IMG/VR virus record: IMGVR_UViG_3300030090_006831
Span: 1-30,344 of that record
Source of the DNA: a virus
Length of the DNA: 30,344 nt
Reading direction: 5' to 3' (one strand)
The translations under genes were made by a program, and so were the position numbers. The notes beneath the pieces were generated by a model, which saw only the letters and a program-made list of their open reading frames with translations, had not been told where the DNA came from and did not search any database. This document shows, in pieces, positions 12,478-29,199 of the stretch (within the stretch, counting starts at the first letter, position 1; each line of letters starts with the position of its first letter).

Positions 12478-12719
12478 TAGACGCCCTCAACATCTTCTAC
12501 TGTGGCCCGTCTCGGGCCGTGAGATCGAAGATGATCCATCGGATCTATTGGACCATGAAGTTCCACATCCAGCTGCGCATTACGCACCCGAAGCGCTAGC
12601 TCACGATAGAGCTTCTGAGTATCAGTACGTTCTTGACGCTCCCGATTAAGCTGAGCCAGCAAGGTGACGATTACAAAACAAAGAGCCACTAGAGCAAAGT
12701 AGGGAAACCATTCTATCAT
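12477..12719 (-). CDS. Small single-pass membrane protein
   Basis: An N-terminal membrane helix (FPYFALVALCFVIVTLLA, residues 5-22) is followed by a charged coiled-coil-like region (NRERQERTDTQKLYRELALRVR) and a polar end. At 80 residues with N-out or N-in anchor and a soluble coiled coil, it could be a spanin- or holin-like lysis factor, but it lies between terminase and portal and lacks a decisive motif. It is coupled to both neighbours by ATGA and TAATG overlaps. Confidence 0.6.
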   Translation of the reverse strand: MIEWFPYFALVALCFVIVTLLAQLNRERQERTDTQKLYRELALRVRNAQLDVELHGPIDPMDHLRSHGPRRATVEDVEGV

Positions 12720-13450
12720 GACATATACCTCCCCATGCCAGAGTCATAATCAGGCGTGCGTTCTTTAGCTTTAACCCGTCGGATCAGCCTTTCCGAGTAA
12801 TCCTCATCGTCATCTTCAACCTCCCGAACCGGGATTCCCTGGACAGTAGCCGGCAACTCATTCTGCTGCCGATGCGCCTGTAGTGTTGCAACCTTCATCA
12901 TCTCAAGACAAATAAGCCAAGCCATAACCAAATCATCATAGCTTCCTGGAAGTCCCTGGAACTTATTCCCGTGCAACGCAAAGTTCTTAAACTGATTCAA
13001 CAGCTTGCGAGAGCGCGGCTTAGCTGTCTTGTCCTGCATCCATCGACGCCCCTGTGCGATGAGCATCGGACGCGTTAGCTCGGAAGTATTCCAACCCAGC
13101 TTGGATGTTGGGTCTCTATACGCCCGTCGTGTCTCGCGACGCTCGAAATAAATATTAGGATAGCGCAACTGCTTGAGGACCAGATTAGAAGTGGCATCCT
13201 TGTTGTTTTCGATACCAATCAATGCCGTGTTGTAGTGCGTGCCCAGCATCCAACACAACTCCCCAAAAGCAATAGGCTCGATCTTCCCCTGAAGCTCGGC
13301 TACCTGCTCTCCAGTGTTGACGCAGCCCACCTGGGCCACTGAGTCGTCACCGCGCTCCAAGCCTTCTGCCGGGTCGCCGCCCAAAGCATAGACCCAGCCA
13401 GGAACAGGCGGCTCAAAAATACGCAGATCGTAGGGGACACCTCTAGGCAT
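12716..13450 (-). CDS. terL: Terminase large subunit, nuclease part
   Basis: This 244-residue frame is the RNase-H-like nuclease half of a large terminase, which cuts the concatemer during packaging. The metal-binding acids are visible: D26 in YALGGDPAEG, E81 in LIGIENN, and D172/D173 in SYDDLVMAW. The ATG at 13450 is in the same reading frame as the ATPase part upstream and is separated from it only by one TGA (13471-13469) and six sense codons. No ribosome site precedes it at a useful distance, which makes independent initiation doubtful. It ends in an ATGA overlap with the membrane protein gene. Confidence 0.85.
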   Translation of the reverse strand: MPRGVPYDLRIFEPPVPGWVYALGGDPAEGLERGDDSVAQVGCVNTGEQVAELQGKIEPIAFGELCWMLGTHYNTALIGIENNKDATSNLVLKQLRYPNIYFERRETRRAYRDPTSKLGWNTSELTRPMLIAQGRRWMQDKTAKPRSRKLLNQFKNFALHGNKFQGLPGSYDDLVMAWLICLEMMKVATLQAHRQQNELPATVQGIPVREVEDDDEDYSERLIRRVKAKERTPDYDSGMGRYMS

Positions 13451-13468: not shown

Positions 13469-14479
13469 TCATATCCCCTCATATTCTTCTACTAAGGGGG
13501 TTTCCACCGACTGATAAGAAACTAGGCCCTGCTCATCAACAAAAAGCTCGCCCAACTCTGGATCTTCAACGTCTTGCTCCATCTCACGAATCAGAGAGCC
13601 AGGAAAGGCTAACTTAACACCTATAGGCACAAACATTCCGTAGACACGCGCATCCAATTCATCCTCACCATACTCCTCTAATAGCCGCTGCTTTGCTTCA
13701 GGAGGAATATAGGGGTTATCCAAAAGGCTCCAGTTATGGAACTCAATGCCCTTCTCTCGGCGCGGCAAATACAATTCCTCGTAGACCCATGAGATCCCGC
13801 GAGATCGTTCGTAGATAGGCGTCATCGTCCCAAGCATAAATCCATCCCGGTCAGTAAGACGCTGACGGCATTCCTGATAGACGTCGATAGGCTGCTCCTC
13901 ATCCAGGTGAACCTTACCCAAGGATGTCCCCTGAAAGGTGCGCCGTTTCTGGGTAGCAAACTTAAAGCGAATAGAACTGCCGTTGACAAACTCGCAGAGA
14001 TGATCCGAGAACCCGGCTTTCCGAGTCCAGGTAGTGGAATCCTTGACCAGCTGCCACCCCATACCTAACTCATCCAAACCTAAAACATGCTCAGCAAAAG
14101 TTTGTTCAATGACATCGATTGAGGTCTCCTCGGTATCGGAGACAATCCACATAGGAAAGGGTTCGTGAAAACGCTCTGACGGCCCCAGCGTGATGGGATC
14201 CAAAAGCATCATATCGCAGAAATCTTCGACAAGGCCGCGCAGCGTCTTGCCGGATCGATTGCCGCATACGTCCCACTTATTTCGGGCATGCGAACGATGC
14301 GTGCCTACCTGCGCTGGGTTCCCGCTAGTCCCCTTGAATGGCTCAAAGCGCATCGCCGGAACCGCCATAAGACGCCAGACATCCTTGAACTCCTTGGGAT
14401 TCTCAGCCTCGAAAAGGGTCGCCAGCCCTGGCTCCTCGTTCATCATACGAGCCAGCTGCGCAACTTCACTCAGATTCAT
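13469..14479 (-). CDS. terL: Terminase large subunit, ATPase part
   Basis: This is the motor half of the large terminase. Walker A is GNRSGKT (residues 73-79), Walker B with the catalytic acid is VHLDEE (190-195), and GTMTP follows as the coupling motif. I chose ATG 14479 (336 residues), nine bases after AGGA and overlapping the HTH gene by 14 bases; the frame is open 34 codons further up, but that part lies inside the HTH gene. It ends at a TGA after LVEEYEGI, just where the nuclease domain should begin, and the missing domain continues in frame downstream. A full-length protein of about 586 residues would have normal size. Confidence 0.9.
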   Translation of the reverse strand: MNLSEVAQLARMMNEEPGLATLFEAENPKEFKDVWRLMAVPAMRFEPFKGTSGNPAQVGTHRSHARNKWDVCGNRSGKTLRGLVEDFCDMMLLDPITLGPSERFHEPFPMWIVSDTEETSIDVIEQTFAEHVLGLDELGMGWQLVKDSTTWTRKAGFSDHLCEFVNGSSIRFKFATQKRRTFQGTSLGKVHLDEEQPIDVYQECRQRLTDRDGFMLGTMTPIYERSRGISWVYEELYLPRREKGIEFHNWSLLDNPYIPPEAKQRLLEEYGEDELDARVYGMFVPIGVKLAFPGSLIREMEQDVEDPELGELFVDEQGLVSYQSVETPLVEEYEGI

Positions 14480-14681
14480 TGAGTTTTTTCCTGGCCGGAG
14501 CGCCCGAGCCGTAACACTTGAAATAGATGTCGTCGAGCCTATGCGCGGGATAAACCCGATAACCAAGACTATCCCGACCAACCGTGATTAAGCCCTCGTC
14601 CTCCCAGCGACGCAAGGTGGCTTGTGATATGCCCATACGACGGGCAGCCTCACGGATGTGAAGAAATTCAGTCAGACTCAC
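14466..14681 (-). CDS. Small MerR/excisionase-type HTH protein
   Basis: The 71-residue product contains a winged-helix DNA-binding core: FLHIREAARRMGISQATLRRW (residues 6-26), then EDEGLITVGRDSLGYRVYPAHRLDDI. This is the pattern of MerR-like or excisionase-type domains that recognise one half-site. The GTG start at 14681 has AAGGA five bases upstream and overlaps the resolvase gene end by 14 bases. Directly upstream of terminase, it might be a transcription regulator or a small-terminase-like DNA recogniser; a separate TerS candidate exists at 17.2-18.0 kb, so regulation is my preference. Confidence 0.8.
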   Translation of the reverse strand: MSLTEFLHIREAARRMGISQATLRRWEDEGLITVGRDSLGYRVYPAHRLDDIYFKCYGSGAPARKKLNESE

Positions 14682-17976: not shown

Positions 17977-18565
17977 CCTCAACTTCCTCAAGGTTTTAGT
18001 GATCCTACATCCGGGAAGCTTCTCTCACCTACCGGGGGGTAACCTTCAGGGGGGAACCGCCCCCTAGGGGGGCCTCCACCGCGCGGCATTCGTATACGCA
18101 CCCGCATACGCGCGCCGAAGCCTAACGCAAGACTCAACCTACACGTAGAAGCCAATGTCCGACATACTAAGTTCCACATCACATCAGCTTCACTTCTACT
18201 ATATACATACCCGTCGCTTCGCGCCAGTTCGCACCCACAGCAACACCGGTCATGGGCTGGTGCTAGCCTGGGAGTAGCCTGCCTGCCTGGGTCGCCGAAA
18301 GGTACGCGGGTCACGGTGTCAAGTGATCCGCAGGGCGTGCATTTCCAAGGCGCTCTCGGCGCGTGCTGCGGATCCTGGGTGTGAGGCGGTTGATTCTATT
18401 ACGGCGTGGGCCTCACATCCCTCCGTAGCACGCTTGTTCGCAAGCAAATGCACAAGCGGACACTGGACACCTACGGCAGTGCACTCGCTACTCTCCGAGG
18501 CGCGTATTTCGGCAAGCACCCAGACAGGGCAGTAGCGCTTTGCTGGGACACTTAGGAGATAGGAC
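17977..18565. other. GC-rich gene-free region with many hairpins
   Basis: No convincing gene is seen in these 589 bases. They contain a G6/C5/G6 block around 18036-18072, a pair of near-repeated GTATACGC/GCATACGC boxes (about 18092-18112), and further right the stems GATCCGCAG/CTGCGGATC, TGTGAGGC/GCCTCACA, GCTTG-ttcg-CAAGC and CGCTACT/AGTAGCG. They separate the divergent TerS-like gene and the early operon, so both promoters and perhaps the origin should be here. I find no near-consensus promoter. Confidence 0.6.
18325..18537 (+). ncRNA. Structured leader or small RNA candidate
   Basis: Four perfect stems follow each other: 18325-18333 with 18366-18374 (9 bp), 18380-18387 with 18411-18418 (8 bp), 18432-18436 with 18441-18445 (UUCG loop), and 18486-18492 with 18531-18537 (7 bp, enclosing CCGA/TCGG). 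They end about 30 bases before the ATG of the 296-residue gene. A 5' leader with regulatory structure or a separate RNA would fit; the strand is inferred from the gene. Confidence 0.4.
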
Positions 18566-19456: not shown

Positions 19457-19462
19457 CCTCTG

Positions 19463-19501
19463 CCCGCCGGGGAGCCTTCGGGCTTCCTGGCGGGTTTTTT
19501 T
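19463..19501 (+). terminator. Intrinsic terminator
   Basis: A 14-bp stem (CCCGCC-GGGGAGCC pairing with GGCTTCCT-GGCGGG) with a UUCG loop is followed by seven T. This is a textbook rho-independent terminator six bases after the stop of the preceding gene. Confidence 0.95.
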
Positions 19502-19508
19502 AGTTGTC

Positions 19509-19537
19509 TTGCCTTTCAATTACGGGGTGGGTATGAT
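19509..19537 (+). promoter_or_regulatory. Sigma-70-type promoter for the SSB operon
   Basis: TTGCCT (19509-19514), 17 bases, then TATGAT (19532-19537), placed right after the terminator. The predicted start near 19544 leaves a leader of about 44 bases with AAGGAG eight bases before the ATG at 19588. Confidence 0.7.
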
Positions 19538-20308: not shown

Positions 20309-20381
20309 GGCACACGCCCAGCCCACAGGCGCTGTGCCACGTGGGCGCTCCCCACCCCCCTGTCCTCCGGGGAGCGCCCAC
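20309..20381 (+). other. Two hairpins between SSB and the next gene
   Basis: GGCACA (20309-20314) pairs with TGTGCC (20333-20338), and a perfect 13-bp GC-rich stem follows (20341-20353 with 20369-20381, 15-base loop). No U-tract follows, so an RNA-processing or mRNA-protecting element is more likely than an intrinsic terminator. The next ribosome site begins six bases later. Confidence 0.65.
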
Positions 20382-20399
20382 ACATTAAGGAGAAGAGCG

Positions 20400-21339: not shown

Positions 21340-22167
21340 ATGGCTGATGAAACTCACATCCTAACATACTCGGACAAGAATGCCCGTGAGGTTACCTTCG
21401 ATGAGCTTCCTCATATCCAGCCCCTTGAAGAGAAAACAGCTACCTATACACCACTTCCGCACTACGACTTTGCCCAGAATGTAGCCCGACTGGGTGTTGA
21501 GATGCTGGGACCGCATGGTTTCGAGTTAAACGGCAGTCGCATTGTTGTAAACAAAGACGCCGGCCGTATGTTTATGGTGCAAGCTTTCAATCACAATGAG
21601 AGAAGTGACCTGAAGCTAGCCGTAGCTGGACGCAACTCAACGGATAAGTCATGCTTGGCTGCTGTAGCCATCGGCGCCCAGGTGACAGCATGTCTCAACC
21701 TGTGCATAGGCGGTAAGATCCGCGTTGTACGCAAGCATACGGGAGACATCTTCTCCTACCTGAATGACAATCTGGTGCTAGCCTTTCACAAGGCCACCGA
21801 TGGATGGAACGACATGCAGGCAGATGTAGAAGCCATGAAGAAGTCCACCCTTGACGACCGTGAAGCATGTCGTCTCATTGGACAGTTTTGGCACTCAGGT
21901 CTCCTCATGCCGCAGCAGATGACGGCCGTGCGCAAACGCTGGGAAAATCCCCCGCAAAACGAGTTTAAAGATCGAACACTATGGTCGCTATACAACGGTG
22001 TCACTGACGTTTATAAGCAGCTGCCACCGACAACAATAATGCAAAAGCACCTGAAGTTACATGCCCACATGCGAGAGGAAATATTGTATCCCGAGAAACA
22101 GAACGAACGGGAAGAGCTGTTACTTGCCGGAGATCACGACGTCGACACCCACGAACGAGCAGAATAA
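21340..22167 (+). CDS. DUF932-like phage/plasmid protein
   Basis: The 275-residue product resembles the DUF932 (phage-plasmid-like, TIGR03299-type) family of unknown function. The typical core is visible: ELNGSRIVVNKDAGRMFMVQ, a GRNSTDKSCLAAVAIGAQVTA segment like the family's RNSHD.S..A....V..C, then CLNLCIGGKI, VRKHTGDI and a long helical part with FKDRTLWSLYNGVTDVYKQ. These proteins are often found beside recombination genes in phages and plasmids. Ribosome site GGGAG is seven bases before the ATG. Its stop codon lies inside the closing stem of the structured RNA that follows. Confidence 0.7.
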   Translation: MADETHILTYSDKNAREVTFDELPHIQPLEEKTATYTPLPHYDFAQNVARLGVEMLGPHGFELNGSRIVVNKDAGRMFMVQAFNHNERSDLKLAVAGRNSTDKSCLAAVAIGAQVTACLNLCIGGKIRVVRKHTGDIFSYLNDNLVLAFHKATDGWNDMQADVEAMKKSTLDDREACRLIGQFWHSGLLMPQQMTAVRKRWENPPQNEFKDRTLWSLYNGVTDVYKQLPPTTIMQKHLKLHAHMREEILYPEKQNEREELLLAGDHDVDTHERAE

Positions 22168-22500
22168 AAGACTCTGCGCTGCGGCAGCAGCGAGGATTAA
22201 AGGGGCTGAATCCTAAGTTAATTCTCAGGATGTCGCTTCTGGGGAAGGCGAATAGCGATCTGTGCCAGCGGCAAATGCGACGCTTCTGCCGAAGCTAAGT
22301 TCCAACTGACCCTGGCACGGGTAAGTGACGCTTTAAAGGTAGGCAGCAGGGGAACACTGCCCAGAGTCTATAGACGGAGAAGAGTAGGTATGCCTAGTAG
22401 GTCCGCCAGGGCCCTCGCACCGAAAAGCTACTGAGCAAATCCCTGCCATGACCAGCCAGAGAAACGCTATCTGGCCGCAGGTTCTTCTTCGTCTTTTATT
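22163..22500 (+). ncRNA. Large structured non-coding RNA candidate, first element
   Basis: A perfect 10-bp closing stem (AATAAAAGAC at 22163-22172 with GTCTTTTATT at 22491-22500) encloses 318 bases without a credible gene. Inner stems include GTGCCAG/CTGGCAC (22262-22268, 22312-22318) with nested CGGCA/TGCCG, GGCAG/CTGCC (22342-22346, 22357-22361), and CCTGC/GCAGG (22442-22446, 22477-22481) with nested GCCAGA/TCTGGC. AATCCT at 22209-22214 can pair either with AGGATT (22193-22198) or AGGAT (22227-22231). It does not show the conserved sequences of RNase P, tmRNA or 6S RNA that I know. Confidence 0.7.
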
Positions 22501-22505
22501 TAAAA

Positions 22506-22652
22506 TGGAAGCCGGTGCCTCTGTCTGGGGAGGGAGAGGTTAACGCCGTTGAGACGAACCACCTCACTCCAAGAGGAGAGCGCCAGGGAAAGCCCCCGGC
22601 GCAGGAGGATCCGAACGTCTCCCGGTTCACCGGCTTCCACTTTAATTTTTTT
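22506..22652 (+). ncRNA. Second structured RNA element ending in a U-tract
   Basis: A perfect 12-bp stem (22506-22517 with 22628-22639) closes a multi-branched fold: CCTCT/AGAGG, GAGACG/CGTCTC (22551-22556, 22616-22621), and within it CTCC-aaga-GGAG (22567-22578) and GCGCC/GGCGC (22580-22584, 22598-22602). Seven T at 22646-22652 follow the closing stem, so the same element could end transcription. It begins five bases after the first element. A riboswitch-type terminator or the 3' domain of one large RNA are both possible. Confidence 0.7.
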
Positions 22653-22683
22653 GACTCGAAACCCAGCATAGGATCAGCCAGCT

Positions 22684-22905
22684 ATGAAAACATTGGTAGC
22701 CCTCACCGAAAAGCAAATATACGTCATCATGAGCGCCCTTCGTTATTATCACTTGTGGAGTGGGCACCCGATCGTCGAACGGGGGGCGGGGAGGAGTGCC
22801 TTCAAAGCGTTGTCGGAGGCACTGACCCCTTACGAGAATCGCGAAGATCGCGGGGAGGTGACCCATGGAAATAAAGGCAACACCTACCACTCAGATAAAA
22901 GTTGA
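22684..22905 (+). CDS. Small hypothetical protein
   Basis: The 73-residue product starts MKTLVALTEKQIYVIMSALR, a helical pattern seen in many small phage proteins, with HLWSGHPIVERGAGRS and FKALSEALTPYE behind it. It is the first gene after the structured RNAs and overlaps the next gene by 41 bases. The ribosome site is weak (AGGA, ten bases before the ATG). Confidence 0.6.
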   Translation: MKTLVALTEKQIYVIMSALRYYHLWSGHPIVERGAGRSAFKALSEALTPYENREDRGEVTHGNKGNTYHSDKS

Positions 22906-23339: not shown

Positions 23340-23587
23340 TGACCACCCGAGAGTTATTTGAATTACGTGTGCGAGAATTTGCAGTACTAGCAGACGACTT
23401 TGGGCAAAAACACAACCTAAACTCCATCGACATGGCTGGCATAAGCGGAGGACTGGCAGCAGCAGCTATTATCCACATTGGCAAAGAACATCCAAATAAG
23501 GCGATCGAAAGCCTCAATCACATCATAGACAAGCTTGAAATTGTTAGACAGGAGATCATCCGTGGCACAGCACAAGAGGGCGGGTGA
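23339..23587 (+). CDS. Small helical hypothetical protein
   Basis: The 82-residue product is a likely two- or three-helix protein: MTTRELFELRVREFAVLADD, then SGGLAAAAIIHIGKE and KAIESLNHIIDKLEIVRQ. It starts in a TAATG overlap and contains the ribosome site of the next gene in its last codons. No family known. Confidence 0.6.
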   Translation: MTTRELFELRVREFAVLADDFGQKHNLNSIDMAGISGGLAAAAIIHIGKEHPNKAIESLNHIIDKLEIVRQEIIRGTAQEGG

Positions 23588-23798
23588 CCATTTTATCCGA
23601 TTTAGAATACCAAAAGACGAATATATTCAGTTACGGGACCACTGCCACGAACATGACATGACTGTTTCTGAAATGGTTCGTCTGTGCCTGCGAACAGTAA
23701 TGAGGCAAGAAGAAGCCAACTTCACCGAAAGGAAAGCCAGTGTTCGACGAGAAGCAGCTGAAAGAACTAAGGAAGGACCTGGACAAGAAGCATGTTAA
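23562..23798 (+). CDS. Ribbon-helix-helix regulator
   Basis: I chose the GTG at 23562 (78 residues) because AGGAG lies seven bases before it; a TTG at 23535 is an open alternative. The Arc/MetJ/CopG plan is visible: a strand HFIRFRIPKDEYIQL, a first helix with RDHCHEHD, the turn MTVSEMVRL and a second helix CLRTVMRQ. Such proteins bind DNA as dimers through the strand. The C-terminus is basic and charged. It lies directly before the annealing protein and overlaps it by 59 bases, so it may regulate this operon. Confidence 0.75.
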   Translation: MAQHKRAGDHFIRFRIPKDEYIQLRDHCHEHDMTVSEMVRLCLRTVMRQEEANFTERKASVRREAAERTKEGPGQEAC

Positions 23799-24613: not shown

Positions 24614-24853
24614 TTGAGTCATAAAGCGAGCAGTAAGAGTCAACTGGAGCTGACCTGCCGCATCTATAAGACTAATGCCGATGCCGCTCGTGCAATGGGC
24701 GTATCGAAAACCGGGCTTTCAAATATGTGTAAGCGACTAGGCGTAGAGTCGCCAGCTGAGAGGAATAAGAGACTTAAAGAGCCAGGGAAAACTATCAGGA
24801 ACAGGAAAAGATATAACGAGAAGCTATATCATATTTCTGATTCAAAAGCCTGA
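24614..24853 (+). CDS. Small HTH protein, last of the early operon
   Basis: The 79-residue product has an HTH of Fis/transposase type: TNADAARAMGVSKTGLSNMC (about 21-40), followed by a very basic C-terminus (KRLKEPGKTIRNRKRYNEK). The start is TTG at 24614 with no clear ribosome site, so the exact start is uncertain. It lies just before the inverted-repeat cluster at 24859, which it might bind; that is inference. Confidence 0.65.
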   Translation: MSHKASSKSQLELTCRIYKTNADAARAMGVSKTGLSNMCKRLGVESPAERNKRLKEPGKTIRNRKRYNEKLYHISDSKA

Positions 24854-24858
24854 GAAGA

Positions 24859-24916
24859 CCACTGACAGAACTGACAGAAGGCATGATCTGTCAGTTCTTG
24901 TCAGTTCTGTCAGTGG
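24859..24916. repeat. Iteron-like 9-bp units forming nested inverted repeats
   Basis: Two ACTGACAGA units (24861-24878) face three TCTGTCAGT-type units (24887-24916, one imperfect). They form either a perfect 18-bp stem (24859-24876 with 24899-24916) or a 12-bp stem (24867-24878 with 24887-24898, 8-base loop). The site lies between convergent operons, so a bidirectional terminator, a protein-binding array or an origin element are possible. No U-tract is present. Confidence 0.75.
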
Positions 24917-24932
24917 GATCTCCTTGCGACTC

Positions 24933-24972
24933 GATTAGAGGTAAGTATTACGAGGAATACTTACCTCTAATC
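24933..24972. repeat. Perfect 17-bp inverted repeat with 6-base loop
   Basis: GATTAGAGGTAAGTATT (24933-24949), loop ACGAGG, then the exact complement (24956-24972). The stop codon TAG of the large virion gene is inside the right arm. As RNA it is a long hairpin that could end or protect the leftward late message; as DNA it is a strong protein- or recombinase-site candidate. Confidence 0.8.
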
Positions 24973-27900
24973 TTCCAATCGTGGCCTGCGAGGTCGCCGA
25001 GGACGTCGCTCTCGCGGATCATACGCTTTAAGTCCAAGCAATTCGACAACATCCCTCTTACTATCTGGGACGCCAGTATCCTGCATTCGTTGCAGGGTTG
25101 ATGGAACTGCCAGCTGCGTCACAGCCTCCATAACATTCCAATGCATCATCTCGACCAGAGTATCCGCAAAGGGACCAGAGATTGTCTCCATGACCCCTCC
25201 AAGAAGTCCATAGCGTGGCGTCCCCCTAACAACATCCGTCACTGTCTCAGTCGCTGGATGTTGAGATCGATCGCCGATATTAGTCGATGACCACCCAGAT
25301 AATCCTGCGCCCAGAAGAAGACCATAAGCAAGGCCATGACGCAAAAGAGGCTGAATGCTCCCCTTATCTCCCTTCGTGCGCACATAGTCCATCGCATCCA
25401 GCACCATATCTCCAGTAAAACTCGTCTGATGAATGCGGTAAGAACTGAACATGAACAGCAACCGCAGCATAGGCGGCCTTAAAACAGGCGGTGTGCCCGC
25501 AACATTAAAAGGGAAATTAGCCTTCAAGGACAGCTGTCGCGCCTGATCCAATGCCTTGACATGATCCAGCCCCTGATCCCGGAATTGCTCATAGGCGCCC
25601 AAAACTACAGAAGAGCGATTGAAGCGCTCTGACCAACGAGATGGCGTTAACGCAGCATCTTGCATCATCTTAAAAAACGATCCAGCATCCACCAACTCGA
25701 TAAACTCTTCCACCTTAGATGCGTCTGAGAGCATGCCAGACTCATTTAAGATCTCTTTCGGCGTGATGATACGCTCGCTACCATCGTCATTCCTTACTCG
25801 GGACCAAGCTTTGTCTTCCCACTGAGAGGGGTTATTCTTATAGAAGAAATTAGCAATGCCCCTTGAAGTATAGTCGGCATCCAACATAGGCCAACCATTA
25901 ACCAGAGTTTGCGTTGTATTAATCAAGCCGTGAGCGAAGTTAATCCCAAGCTTGGCAAGCATCTGCGTTCGGTATATCTGCTGCAGAACAGGCTGCTGCA
26001 AATGAGGATCTGACAGCGCAACCCGAATGTCGTCAATCTTAAGAGCAGTCTTAGCTCGCATGCGCTGAGCCTTATTGCCCTTAATACGCTTCCCGGTAAC
26101 ATTATCTACCACCCGAGAACGATCGCCCAGCTGCTTTAAAAAGGCATCCGCCTGCGAGATCATATAACTACGATCATTCTCAGGCAGACCATTCCACTCC
26201 TGATCGGTCATGTTCAGACGCCGAAGAACCTGCCTCTCCTCGGCATCGCCTACCCACTCTACCGCTCCATCTACCAAGCGGTTAAACATATTACTATTGC
26301 GGAACTTTCCGGATATCCACTGTCGCGTAGGCGTAGACGAACCCAGCACATGCTTCATATAATCACGCCAAGCTGGACGAATCTGAGTGGCCCCACCCTC
26401 CCGTGTTTTCCGTGGCAAGCGGTTATAAAGGTAAAGGCCATAGTGGGCAATCTTCTCAGATGCAATGCGAGAACTTGCACCACGCAAATAGATATTCATG
26501 ATTGTCGAAAAGTCGCCCTCAAATCCCTGCAGCCCCTTGGTGCGTGGGAGCAGATGCCCAAAGGGTCGTGCCCTTAAATCCGGCGCCTCTTCTTCAAAGA
26601 CCTCTTCTACCTTCTCGCGCAGCTGACGTCGAGTGCGTTCACCTGGATCCAGCGTTAAATCAAGAAGAGCATCTCCCTTACCTGGCCCCAAGCGACCTGC
26701 CAACACTCGCGCTCGCATCTTGCCAGCATTGCCAGTAAAGACATGAGCAATGTAATTATTCAGCCGTTGTCCCTCCGGCAAGCCTAGCTCATCAGCTACT
26801 TCCTTGAGAAGCTTTCTCGAAAGCTGATAGGCTTCCCGCATCCCCTGACGCTCCAGCTGAGATTTAGCCCAATCGCTCTCTACTCCCTCATCAAGAAGAC
26901 GCGTCAGGGTGTGCGCACGCTCACGCGCTGCATCAAGCTGAGTACTCTGACCTCGAACGCGGGTCACCAACTCTGAAGCTACCGTCCGTGCCCCTGGAGA
27001 TGGCATACCAAGAAGCTTGTTTATTTCCCTAACCTGATTCCACCAGCCCGTAAAACGACCCTGATCTTCCTCGATCCAGTTTAATATCTTCCACTGAGCC
27101 TGCTGAGTAGAAGCATTGCGGCCCATAGAAACCCGCGAGGTATTTGAAAAAAAGCGATACCAGGGCTGGATATCCACCATCTCCGCATCGGTAGGAACTG
27201 CCTGATAAGCAGAATCCGTCATCTCTTCACGAAGCTTTACTGCCTCCCCAGGATGCTCATCCCCCTTCGCGAAGAAATTGTAAATGGCATCTTCTTCCTC
27301 GGCCATCTTCACTGAGCGTGCCTGACGAAGATCACCCAACGCCTGGATAGCCTCTTCCTGTGTCATCTTTTCAGGCACCATATCCTGGCGCACATCAACA
27401 CCACGTACAGACAACTCGTCAATAAGGCTGGCCATCTCTCCACGCATAGATGCCGTAGCTGTAGCTCGTGGATCACCCAGCATAAACGAGGGTGTATCAA
27501 GCTTGTGCGCCGGCATGTTAGTGAGAAAGCCTCGGTACTCAGGCTGATTTCTCAAAAGAGCCTGATCCGCTAACTCAGGTACAAACTCTGCCCGCAACCG
27601 GAACACCGTCTCCAATAGCTCGCCAATCTCCTTGCCTTGCATAGGACTTCCATGAAGCTGCTGGCGAGAGTAGATGTATTCAGAGACATCCTGACTGCGT
27701 GCTGACATTAAAAACATAGACTCGGTCTCGTTAAAACGAGCCTTAGAATCTGCCAACCCCTGCAAGCGCTCCATGCCCTGACGCTGACGCGGCGACATCC
27801 GCATCAGGAGACGCTCACGGTCAGGAATACGCATCAAATCATCGGGTGACAGCGCTCCTGGATATACCAGCGGTGCTGGCTCCAGCATCACCTCACGAAT

Positions 27901-29199
27901 AGCATAGTCCGAATCCTCAAAACGCAACCCATGATAGACTCCCGAAGGCAACGGAGGCACATAGCTGTCTCCCAATGCTAGCGCATTAATCCGATCTTCA
28001 TAGGCAGCTTTGCTCTCCTTCGGAAATCCCTTAAAAGCTTCGCGTTGCGGCACTGTAGCATGCATCAATTCATGGCGCAATGAGAAGGCTTCAAACTCCC
28101 CATAAGTACGGAAGGCATTCTCCGGAAGAGGCTTCACCCCCGGAACCTGAGGCTTAGTCCATGCCTTATCGCGGAATTTCTCCTCTAAGGCCGGGCGTGA
28201 GATCAAAACCTCGTTGCCAGTGTATCGGCCACCGATCAGCTTATCTTCTTCTCCTGGACGTGAAGGGATATGATCGACATAACGGACCTTGACATTACGC
28301 GCCACCCGCTGCATGTGCTGATCAACAGTCTCTCCCAATCGGGGGAAAGCATTCTCGCCAAAGGCAGTCTCGAAATCCGCGTCTGGCATACGCTCCGGCC
28401 CCAAGAAGGCATCCGCTGAAGCCTGCTTCTCCCAAGGCGGCGTTAAGTCAGGAGCTTCGTCGACAGGAATTGGCTCTTCAGGCCCAACATAGGTTCGAGC
28501 CTCAAGATCCTCTGGCTCAATCGGAGTAAAAGCCCCCTCACCCGTAACCATCTTCTCAATTTCTGCAAGATCGTGGTTAATTTCAGAGGTTCTCTTCCCC
28601 CTGCTTTCTCGAACCCGTTTTAGAAAACGACCACCTACATTAGCTAGAGCCTCACCGCCTACACCCAGCGTCATCCAAAGAGCTACCGTATTGCCTATCT
28701 GGTCCAAATCGTCTGTCCGCCATATCTCGGCGGAAGTTGCAACACCTGTCTCTGGGAGCATAGCTGCAGCAGTTTCTCCCGTCCATACAGCACCCCGTCC
28801 CACTCCGGTCTCTGCACCCTTACCAAGAAGCTTGCGAACAGCCTGCCCTGCGACAGGAGACGCTACCCGACGTCCTATATTAAATAGACCCGTGCCAGTG
28901 GCACCACCACCCAGCAGTCGGCCAAGCTCTCGGGAGGGCGTTACCTCTCCCAAGATAGGTATATCGGTCTTATAGGCCCCTGGCACCTCATCCAATTCCA
29001 GAAGGTTGAAGGAGGCGCCTTCCGGTATACCCTTGCCAAAGGCCGCTAGCTCTTGCAGAAGATCATCACCAAAGGTCTCAAATGCAGAAGTATCATAGCC
29101 TCGCTTACGCAACGAGGCTACAACCTCTTCTTTCGTAGCATCACCTCGCTCAATCTGAGAGCGAAGATTTTCAATGATCCTCTGAGAAAGCTCAGGCAT
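24967..29199 (-). CDS. Very large virion (ejection-type) protein with HExxH motif
   Basis: The 1410-residue product is the largest in the window. It starts with a helical segment (MPELSQRIIENLRSQIERGD, KRGYDTSAF), then Gly/Ala-rich stretches (about 93-135) and weakly hydrophobic pieces. Residues 376-380 form HELMH in LRHELMHATV, the zinc-peptidase signature. Long helical regions follow (about 450-1200), near the C-terminus a hydrophobic part (LLRLLFMFSSYRIH, LAYGLLLGAGLSGW) and a basic end (RERRPRRPRRPRLED). Size, position behind a coiled-coil protein and the membrane-active pieces suggest an internal virion protein injected with the DNA. Ribosome site AGGAG is eight bases before the ATG. Confidence 0.8.
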   Translation of the reverse strand: MPELSQRIIENLRSQIERGDATKEEVVASLRKRGYDTSAFETFGDDLLQELAAFGKGIPEGASFNLLELDEVPGAYKTDIPILGEVTPSRELGRLLGGGATGTGLFNIGRRVASPVAGQAVRKLLGKGAETGVGRGAVWTGETAAAMLPETGVATSAEIWRTDDLDQIGNTVALWMTLGVGGEALANVGGRFLKRVRESRGKRTSEINHDLAEIEKMVTGEGAFTPIEPEDLEARTYVGPEEPIPVDEAPDLTPPWEKQASADAFLGPERMPDADFETAFGENAFPRLGETVDQHMQRVARNVKVRYVDHIPSRPGEEDKLIGGRYTGNEVLISRPALEEKFRDKAWTKPQVPGVKPLPENAFRTYGEFEAFSLRHELMHATVPQREAFKGFPKESKAAYEDRINALALGDSYVPPLPSGVYHGLRFEDSDYAIREVMLEPAPLVYPGALSPDDLMRIPDRERLLMRMSPRQRQGMERLQGLADSKARFNETESMFLMSARSQDVSEYIYSRQQLHGSPMQGKEIGELLETVFRLRAEFVPELADQALLRNQPEYRGFLTNMPAHKLDTPSFMLGDPRATATASMRGEMASLIDELSVRGVDVRQDMVPEKMTQEEAIQALGDLRQARSVKMAEEEDAIYNFFAKGDEHPGEAVKLREEMTDSAYQAVPTDAEMVDIQPWYRFFSNTSRVSMGRNASTQQAQWKILNWIEEDQGRFTGWWNQVREINKLLGMPSPGARTVASELVTRVRGQSTQLDAARERAHTLTRLLDEGVESDWAKSQLERQGMREAYQLSRKLLKEVADELGLPEGQRLNNYIAHVFTGNAGKMRARVLAGRLGPGKGDALLDLTLDPGERTRRQLREKVEEVFEEEAPDLRARPFGHLLPRTKGLQGFEGDFSTIMNIYLRGASSRIASEKIAHYGLYLYNRLPRKTREGGATQIRPAWRDYMKHVLGSSTPTRQWISGKFRNSNMFNRLVDGAVEWVGDAEERQVLRRLNMTDQEWNGLPENDRSYMISQADAFLKQLGDRSRVVDNVTGKRIKGNKAQRMRAKTALKIDDIRVALSDPHLQQPVLQQIYRTQMLAKLGINFAHGLINTTQTLVNGWPMLDADYTSRGIANFFYKNNPSQWEDKAWSRVRNDDGSERIITPKEILNESGMLSDASKVEEFIELVDAGSFFKMMQDAALTPSRWSERFNRSSVVLGAYEQFRDQGLDHVKALDQARQLSLKANFPFNVAGTPPVLRPPMLRLLFMFSSYRIHQTSFTGDMVLDAMDYVRTKGDKGSIQPLLRHGLAYGLLLGAGLSGWSSTNIGDRSQHPATETVTDVVRGTPRYGLLGGVMETISGPFADTLVEMMHWNVMEAVTQLAVPSTLQRMQDTGVPDSKRDVVELLGLKAYDPRERRPRRPRRPRLED

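Follow-up and report, generated by a model that had tools for sequence, protein, structure and literature searches.

The gene-free stretch that follows the DUF932 gene of an uncultured tailed phage (22168-22652) may be a cis-acting, structured 3'-untranslated or intergenic spacer of the early operon, a reading that could as readily prove right as wrong. Comparison with relatives suggests that it is a much enlarged form of the hairpin spacers that these phages keep after some early genes, and not a new GOLLD-like giant RNA. On the best reading, the element diverges rapidly. What was observed is the absence of genes, the strong fold of the last of three domains (domain C), the U-run that follows it, and the recurrence of structured spacers at the equivalent position of relatives.

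The source phage and its early operon

The window, i.e. the whole 30,344-nucleotide stretch of DNA that was analyzed, is contained in a virus record of 37,689 bases. The phage gene set identified comprises portal, major head protein, terminase, SSB, DUF932, and Rad52. Relatives of the head protein reached a top identity of 64% (L047), relatives of DUF932 were found at ∼100 IMG/VR loci, and those of Rad52 were mostly distant phages. The + strand genes between 18566 and 24853 look like an early operon, and the following features were located in it.

19462-19495: strong terminator in the early operon region, from a terminator scan
19509-19537: promoter-like site in the early operon region
20309..20399 (+): structured spacer (z -4.8) 3' of SSB, containing a 13-bp GC-rich hairpin; an element of the same kind as the stretch behind DUF932
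21340..22167 (+): DUF932 gene (PF06067; Pfam E 1.8e-7, over the cut-off)
22684..22905 (+): small orphan ORF 3' of the structured stretch, the first of four ORFs without known relatives

Several neighboring features were also recorded. The 574 bases without genes between divergent genes at 17992-18565 contain GC-rich repeats and strong folds and are perhaps an early control region. Directly 5' of Rad52, the product of 23535-23798 (+) is a small protein whose match to a RelB antitoxin is weak, slightly under the Pfam cut-off, and a similar small gene occupies the equivalent position, before Rad52, in the syntenic G048. Two long perfect hairpins at 24860-24980, where the genes 24614-24853 (+) and 24967-29199 (-) converge, were the top-ranked fold of the genome scan and are probably a two-way terminator. 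For the 1410-aa protein encoded by 24967-29199 (-), no Pfam family was found and the PHROG match, to a DarB-like antirestriction family, was weak; its homologues lie close to DUF932 in L072, L077, L080, L093, and L117. The large terminase consists of two ORFs on the - strand, an ATPase part and a nuclease part, at 12716-13450 and 13469-14581. It is equally split in L047, L048, and L049, with ∼220, 480, and 3,400 bases between the parts, as if the gap were an intron, intein, or insertion site.

Extent and fold of the gene-free stretch

The first-pass annotation had described 22163-22500 as a large, gene-free RNA closed by a perfect 10-bp stem and filled with internal inverted repeats. The perfect repeat is present (AATAAAAGAC at 22163-22172 and GTCTTTTATT at 22491-22500), the stop codon of DUF932 falls inside it as had been stated, numerous internal inverted repeats were found, and no plausible ORF lies within 22168-22683. 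The boundaries, by contrast, were wrong, since the structure goes on to 22646 and its final domain is the most significant by far. The view of the repeat as a closing stem was likewise not borne out: it is mostly unused in the predicted fold, because its inner AGAC and GTCT are taken up by pairing within the stems of domains A and B. Of dinucleotide shuffles of the 338-base stretch, 4.65% contained a perfect 10-mer inverted repeat, and the fold of these bases is only moderately better than that of shuffles (z -2.6 to -2.8, with 7 of 67 equal-length genome windows equal or better) and about equally good on the minus strand. Over a 498-base region, four 10-mer inverted-repeat pairs were counted against 0.19 expected, the fraction of shuffles reaching four being 0.004.

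The structured stretch runs from the DUF932 stop (22167) to ∼22652, a length of ∼500 bases, and three stem-closed domains could be defined from base-pair probabilities.

22163..22500 (+): stretch reported at first (338 bases), with the perfect 10-bp inverted repeat at both ends
22169..22369 (+): domain A, closing stem 22169-22179 / 22359-22369, from base-pair probabilities
22372..22494 (+): domain B, closing stem 22372-22383 / 22483-22494, from base-pair probabilities
22500..22646 (+): domain C, branched, closing stem 22500-22517 / 22628-22645, an inverted repeat
22646..22652 (+): terminator-like run of seven T directly 3' of the domain C stem, from the sequence

Comparison with shuffles gave z values of -2.7 on the + strand and -3.8 on the - strand for domain A, and of -3.0 and -1.6, respectively, for domain B. 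The strongest fold is that of domain C, which lies outside the range first reported: its z was -4.7 to -5.7, none of 200 shuffles was as good, and it ranked third of 467 windows in the genome fold scan. Its 18-nt closing stem is 94% complementary. Given that a stable stem is directly followed by a T-run, domain C has the form of an intrinsic terminator; it went unreported by the simple terminator scan because that scan accepts only loops of 3-8. Domains A-C place a strong helix before the next gene, its start no more than a few tens of bases from the DUF932 stop. Two other candidates were rejected. An ORF at 22515-22874, across domain C, overlaps the next gene, has its GTG start inside a stem, and is without relatives, and a CsrB-like sponge would have to rely on only five GGA in the 338 bases (counted by eye), which is about chance level.

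The proposed mechanism is that the stretch is cotranscribed with DUF932 and folds into the three domains, the helices of which would block 3' exonucleases and/or serve as long helices for RNase III-type cutting. The DUF932 message would thereby be separated and stabilized, and domain C, through its 18-nt stem and U7, would stop or lower transcription into the small genes downstream. Several observations count against such a cis-acting role. Domains A and B are far bigger than a boundary requires, neither a homologue nor covariation was obtained for the stretch among the databases searched, and the minus strand of domain C gives an equally good fold.

Structured spacers behind DUF932 and SSB in related phages

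At ∼12 DUF932 loci a strong hairpin lies directly 3' of the DUF932 stop, with sizes from a single 15-bp hairpin up to a multi-domain spacer of 273 nt. The median z of gaps 3' of DUF932 was -3.26, compared with -1.15 for other gaps of the same loci, with a p of 0.0025 that is to be read with care given the relatedness of the loci and the uncertainty of several start codons. The two extremes are found in close relatives: L077 has the 273-nt spacer (z -4.1) and L080 a 76-nt spacer with one 15-bp hairpin, the next gene being the same in both, which indicates that spacer size changes fast while structure persists. In the nearest DUF932 relative (L076; 54%), a 16-bp hairpin directly follows the stop codon, and in L089, L091, and L100 the DUF932-linked hairpin retains pairing despite differing sequence. 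Most of these hairpins are without a U-run, and termination is therefore not a shared role. That relatives have, behind the same gene, either just a short hairpin or a spacer that is structured but unrelated points to a cis-acting spacer.

Structured spacers behind SSB, an association noticed after the fact, are present not only in the window but also in L077, L080, L093, and L078. Resembling domain C, those of L077 (z -7.2) and L080 (z -5.7) are branched, 120-148 nt long, and have a long closing stem with a U-rich stretch after it. Among the 16 pairs of this closing stem, 8 are the same in L077 and L080, 5 differ by one-sided and 3 by two-sided changes, and none is broken; the one-sided changes give G-U on the coding strand, and such intermediates support pairing in RNA. 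The interiors of the two spacers gave no alignment. In L011 and L039, SSB is followed by a plain hairpin with a T-run and then a sigma70-like promoter sequence, and in several more distant phages there is almost no gap behind SSB. Loops of the form (T)GGGGA(G/A) occur in the window (22240-22246, 22346-22351, and 22525-22531) and in L077, L080, L078, L093, L088, and L072. The apical-loop motif TGGGGAG was seen in 5 elements against 0.45 expected, an enrichment that loses significance once all 7-mers are corrected for.

A further comparison was with G048 (L058/L072; head protein 61%). Here, the order SSB, DUF932, ribbon-helix-helix-like small gene, and Rad52 is that of the window, and DUF932 is followed by a hairpin spacer only, of less than 100 nt; the window has ∼1.4 kb extra, made up of the structured stretch and the four orphan ORFs. 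The absence of the stretch from G048, the modest folds of domains A and B, and the very different spacer lengths of L077 and L080 would fit neutral or decaying inserted DNA, rich in inverted repeats by chance and perhaps a relic of some palindromic or mobile element, with domain C alone at work, as a terminator. Such an origin is a serious rival explanation for domains A and B and is, on balance, somewhat unlikely for the stretch. No repeat copies were found in the surrounding window or in the whole record, inverted repeats over the region exceed chance, the phage genome is compact, and structure recurs at the same position.

Searches for homologues and comparison with known systems

The suggestion of a GOLLD- or ROOL-like RNA, or of a further such class, was assessed with Rfam, which gave no match at the gathering score in the window; at E<=10 there was just a 29-nt match to Atu_Ti4, taken as chance. 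DNA similarity to the structured stretch was found in none of 50,697 phage records and 72,556 plasmids, whole related virus records searched by DNA yielded chance matches only, and the loci around DUF932 relatives held no sequence homologue; these databases may omit records very near the window, so that an absence of close relatives is unproven. The pattern of the domain C closing stem had four matches in IMG/VR, judged to be chance because they fall within predicted coding genes or span them and have only the pattern in common with the element. In genome contigs, a 19-base pattern gave one isolated match and the DUF932 alignment none, and IMG/VR queried with DUF932 alone and with portal alone also returned no match. 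With no homologue found in these searches, no conserved fold could be ascribed to the stretch. The presence in the early operon of a large multi-stem element free of genes is supported; a new GOLLD/ROOL-like class, for which the searches gave neither an Rfam match nor a homologue, is not.

A rival proposal, in line with the first-pass annotation, is a free-standing, trans-acting phage RNA of ∼340-500 nt, processed from the operon or made from its own promoter, that would bind a host or phage factor or form an RNA assembly. Its size, three domains, and lack of genes agree with this proposal, the ending of domain C resembles that of a free RNA with a terminator, and the extra 1.4 kb relative to G048 has the look of cargo. 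Set against them are the missing Rfam match, a sequence kept by none of the relatives searched, a scan that found no promoter-like site near the start of the structured stretch, the only moderate fold of the 338 bases first reported, and the spacers without homology that relatives carry at this position. A trans-acting RNA, which nothing specific supports, is considered unlikely. A more far-reaching variant is improbable: behind SSB and DUF932 there might be hypervariable, large, multi-domain, trans-acting phage RNAs that keep only closing stems and position and serve, for example, as RNA decoys for host factors, with a fast-diverging interior as a result. An element that acts as DNA through extruded hairpins, for instance an origin of replication or a site of recombination, would fit the about equally strong folding of both strands and the SSB and Rad52 genes in the same operon and is very unlikely, given that no iterons or direct repeats were found, that the L077 and L080 SSB spacers tolerate G-U pairs on the coding strand, which points to RNA, and that the spacers follow gene ends in one direction.

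If the cis-acting spacer reading is true, this uncultured phage group uses large, fast-evolving RNA structures as early-gene boundaries. With position and pairing kept and sequence not, such elements would be missed by sequence or Rfam-type searches; the structured spacers described here came to light through position. They would also offer a way to study how proteins encoded in one operon come to be made at unequal levels in a phage.

Like GOLLD and ROOL, which are often near tRNA islands (PMC12286853), the stretch is large, gene-free, multi-stem, and phage-encoded. It differs from them in that the Rfam models are unmatched, no tRNA gene is present in the window (ARAGORN), the stretch is smaller, and the searches found no conserved family. 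In T7-type phages, RNase III processing hairpins lie between early genes. The present elements are similarly intergenic helices of an early operon, directly after a gene and before the next ribosome-binding site, whereas those described here are up to 0.5 kb, branched, and candidate processing sites. Domain C shares with intrinsic terminators a long stem with seven T directly after it, but has a 110-nt branched interior rather than a short loop, and domains A and B are without a T-run. REP-type palindromes at mRNA 3' ends are likewise stable helices between genes of the same operon, and those described here could similarly protect the upstream message; REP-type palindromes occur as many similar copies per genome, whereas each element here has its own sequence. 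Structured intergenic elements in phage operons are already known in general, and those described here stand out by their size and branching, by recurring behind SSB and DUF932, and by an interior that changes fast.
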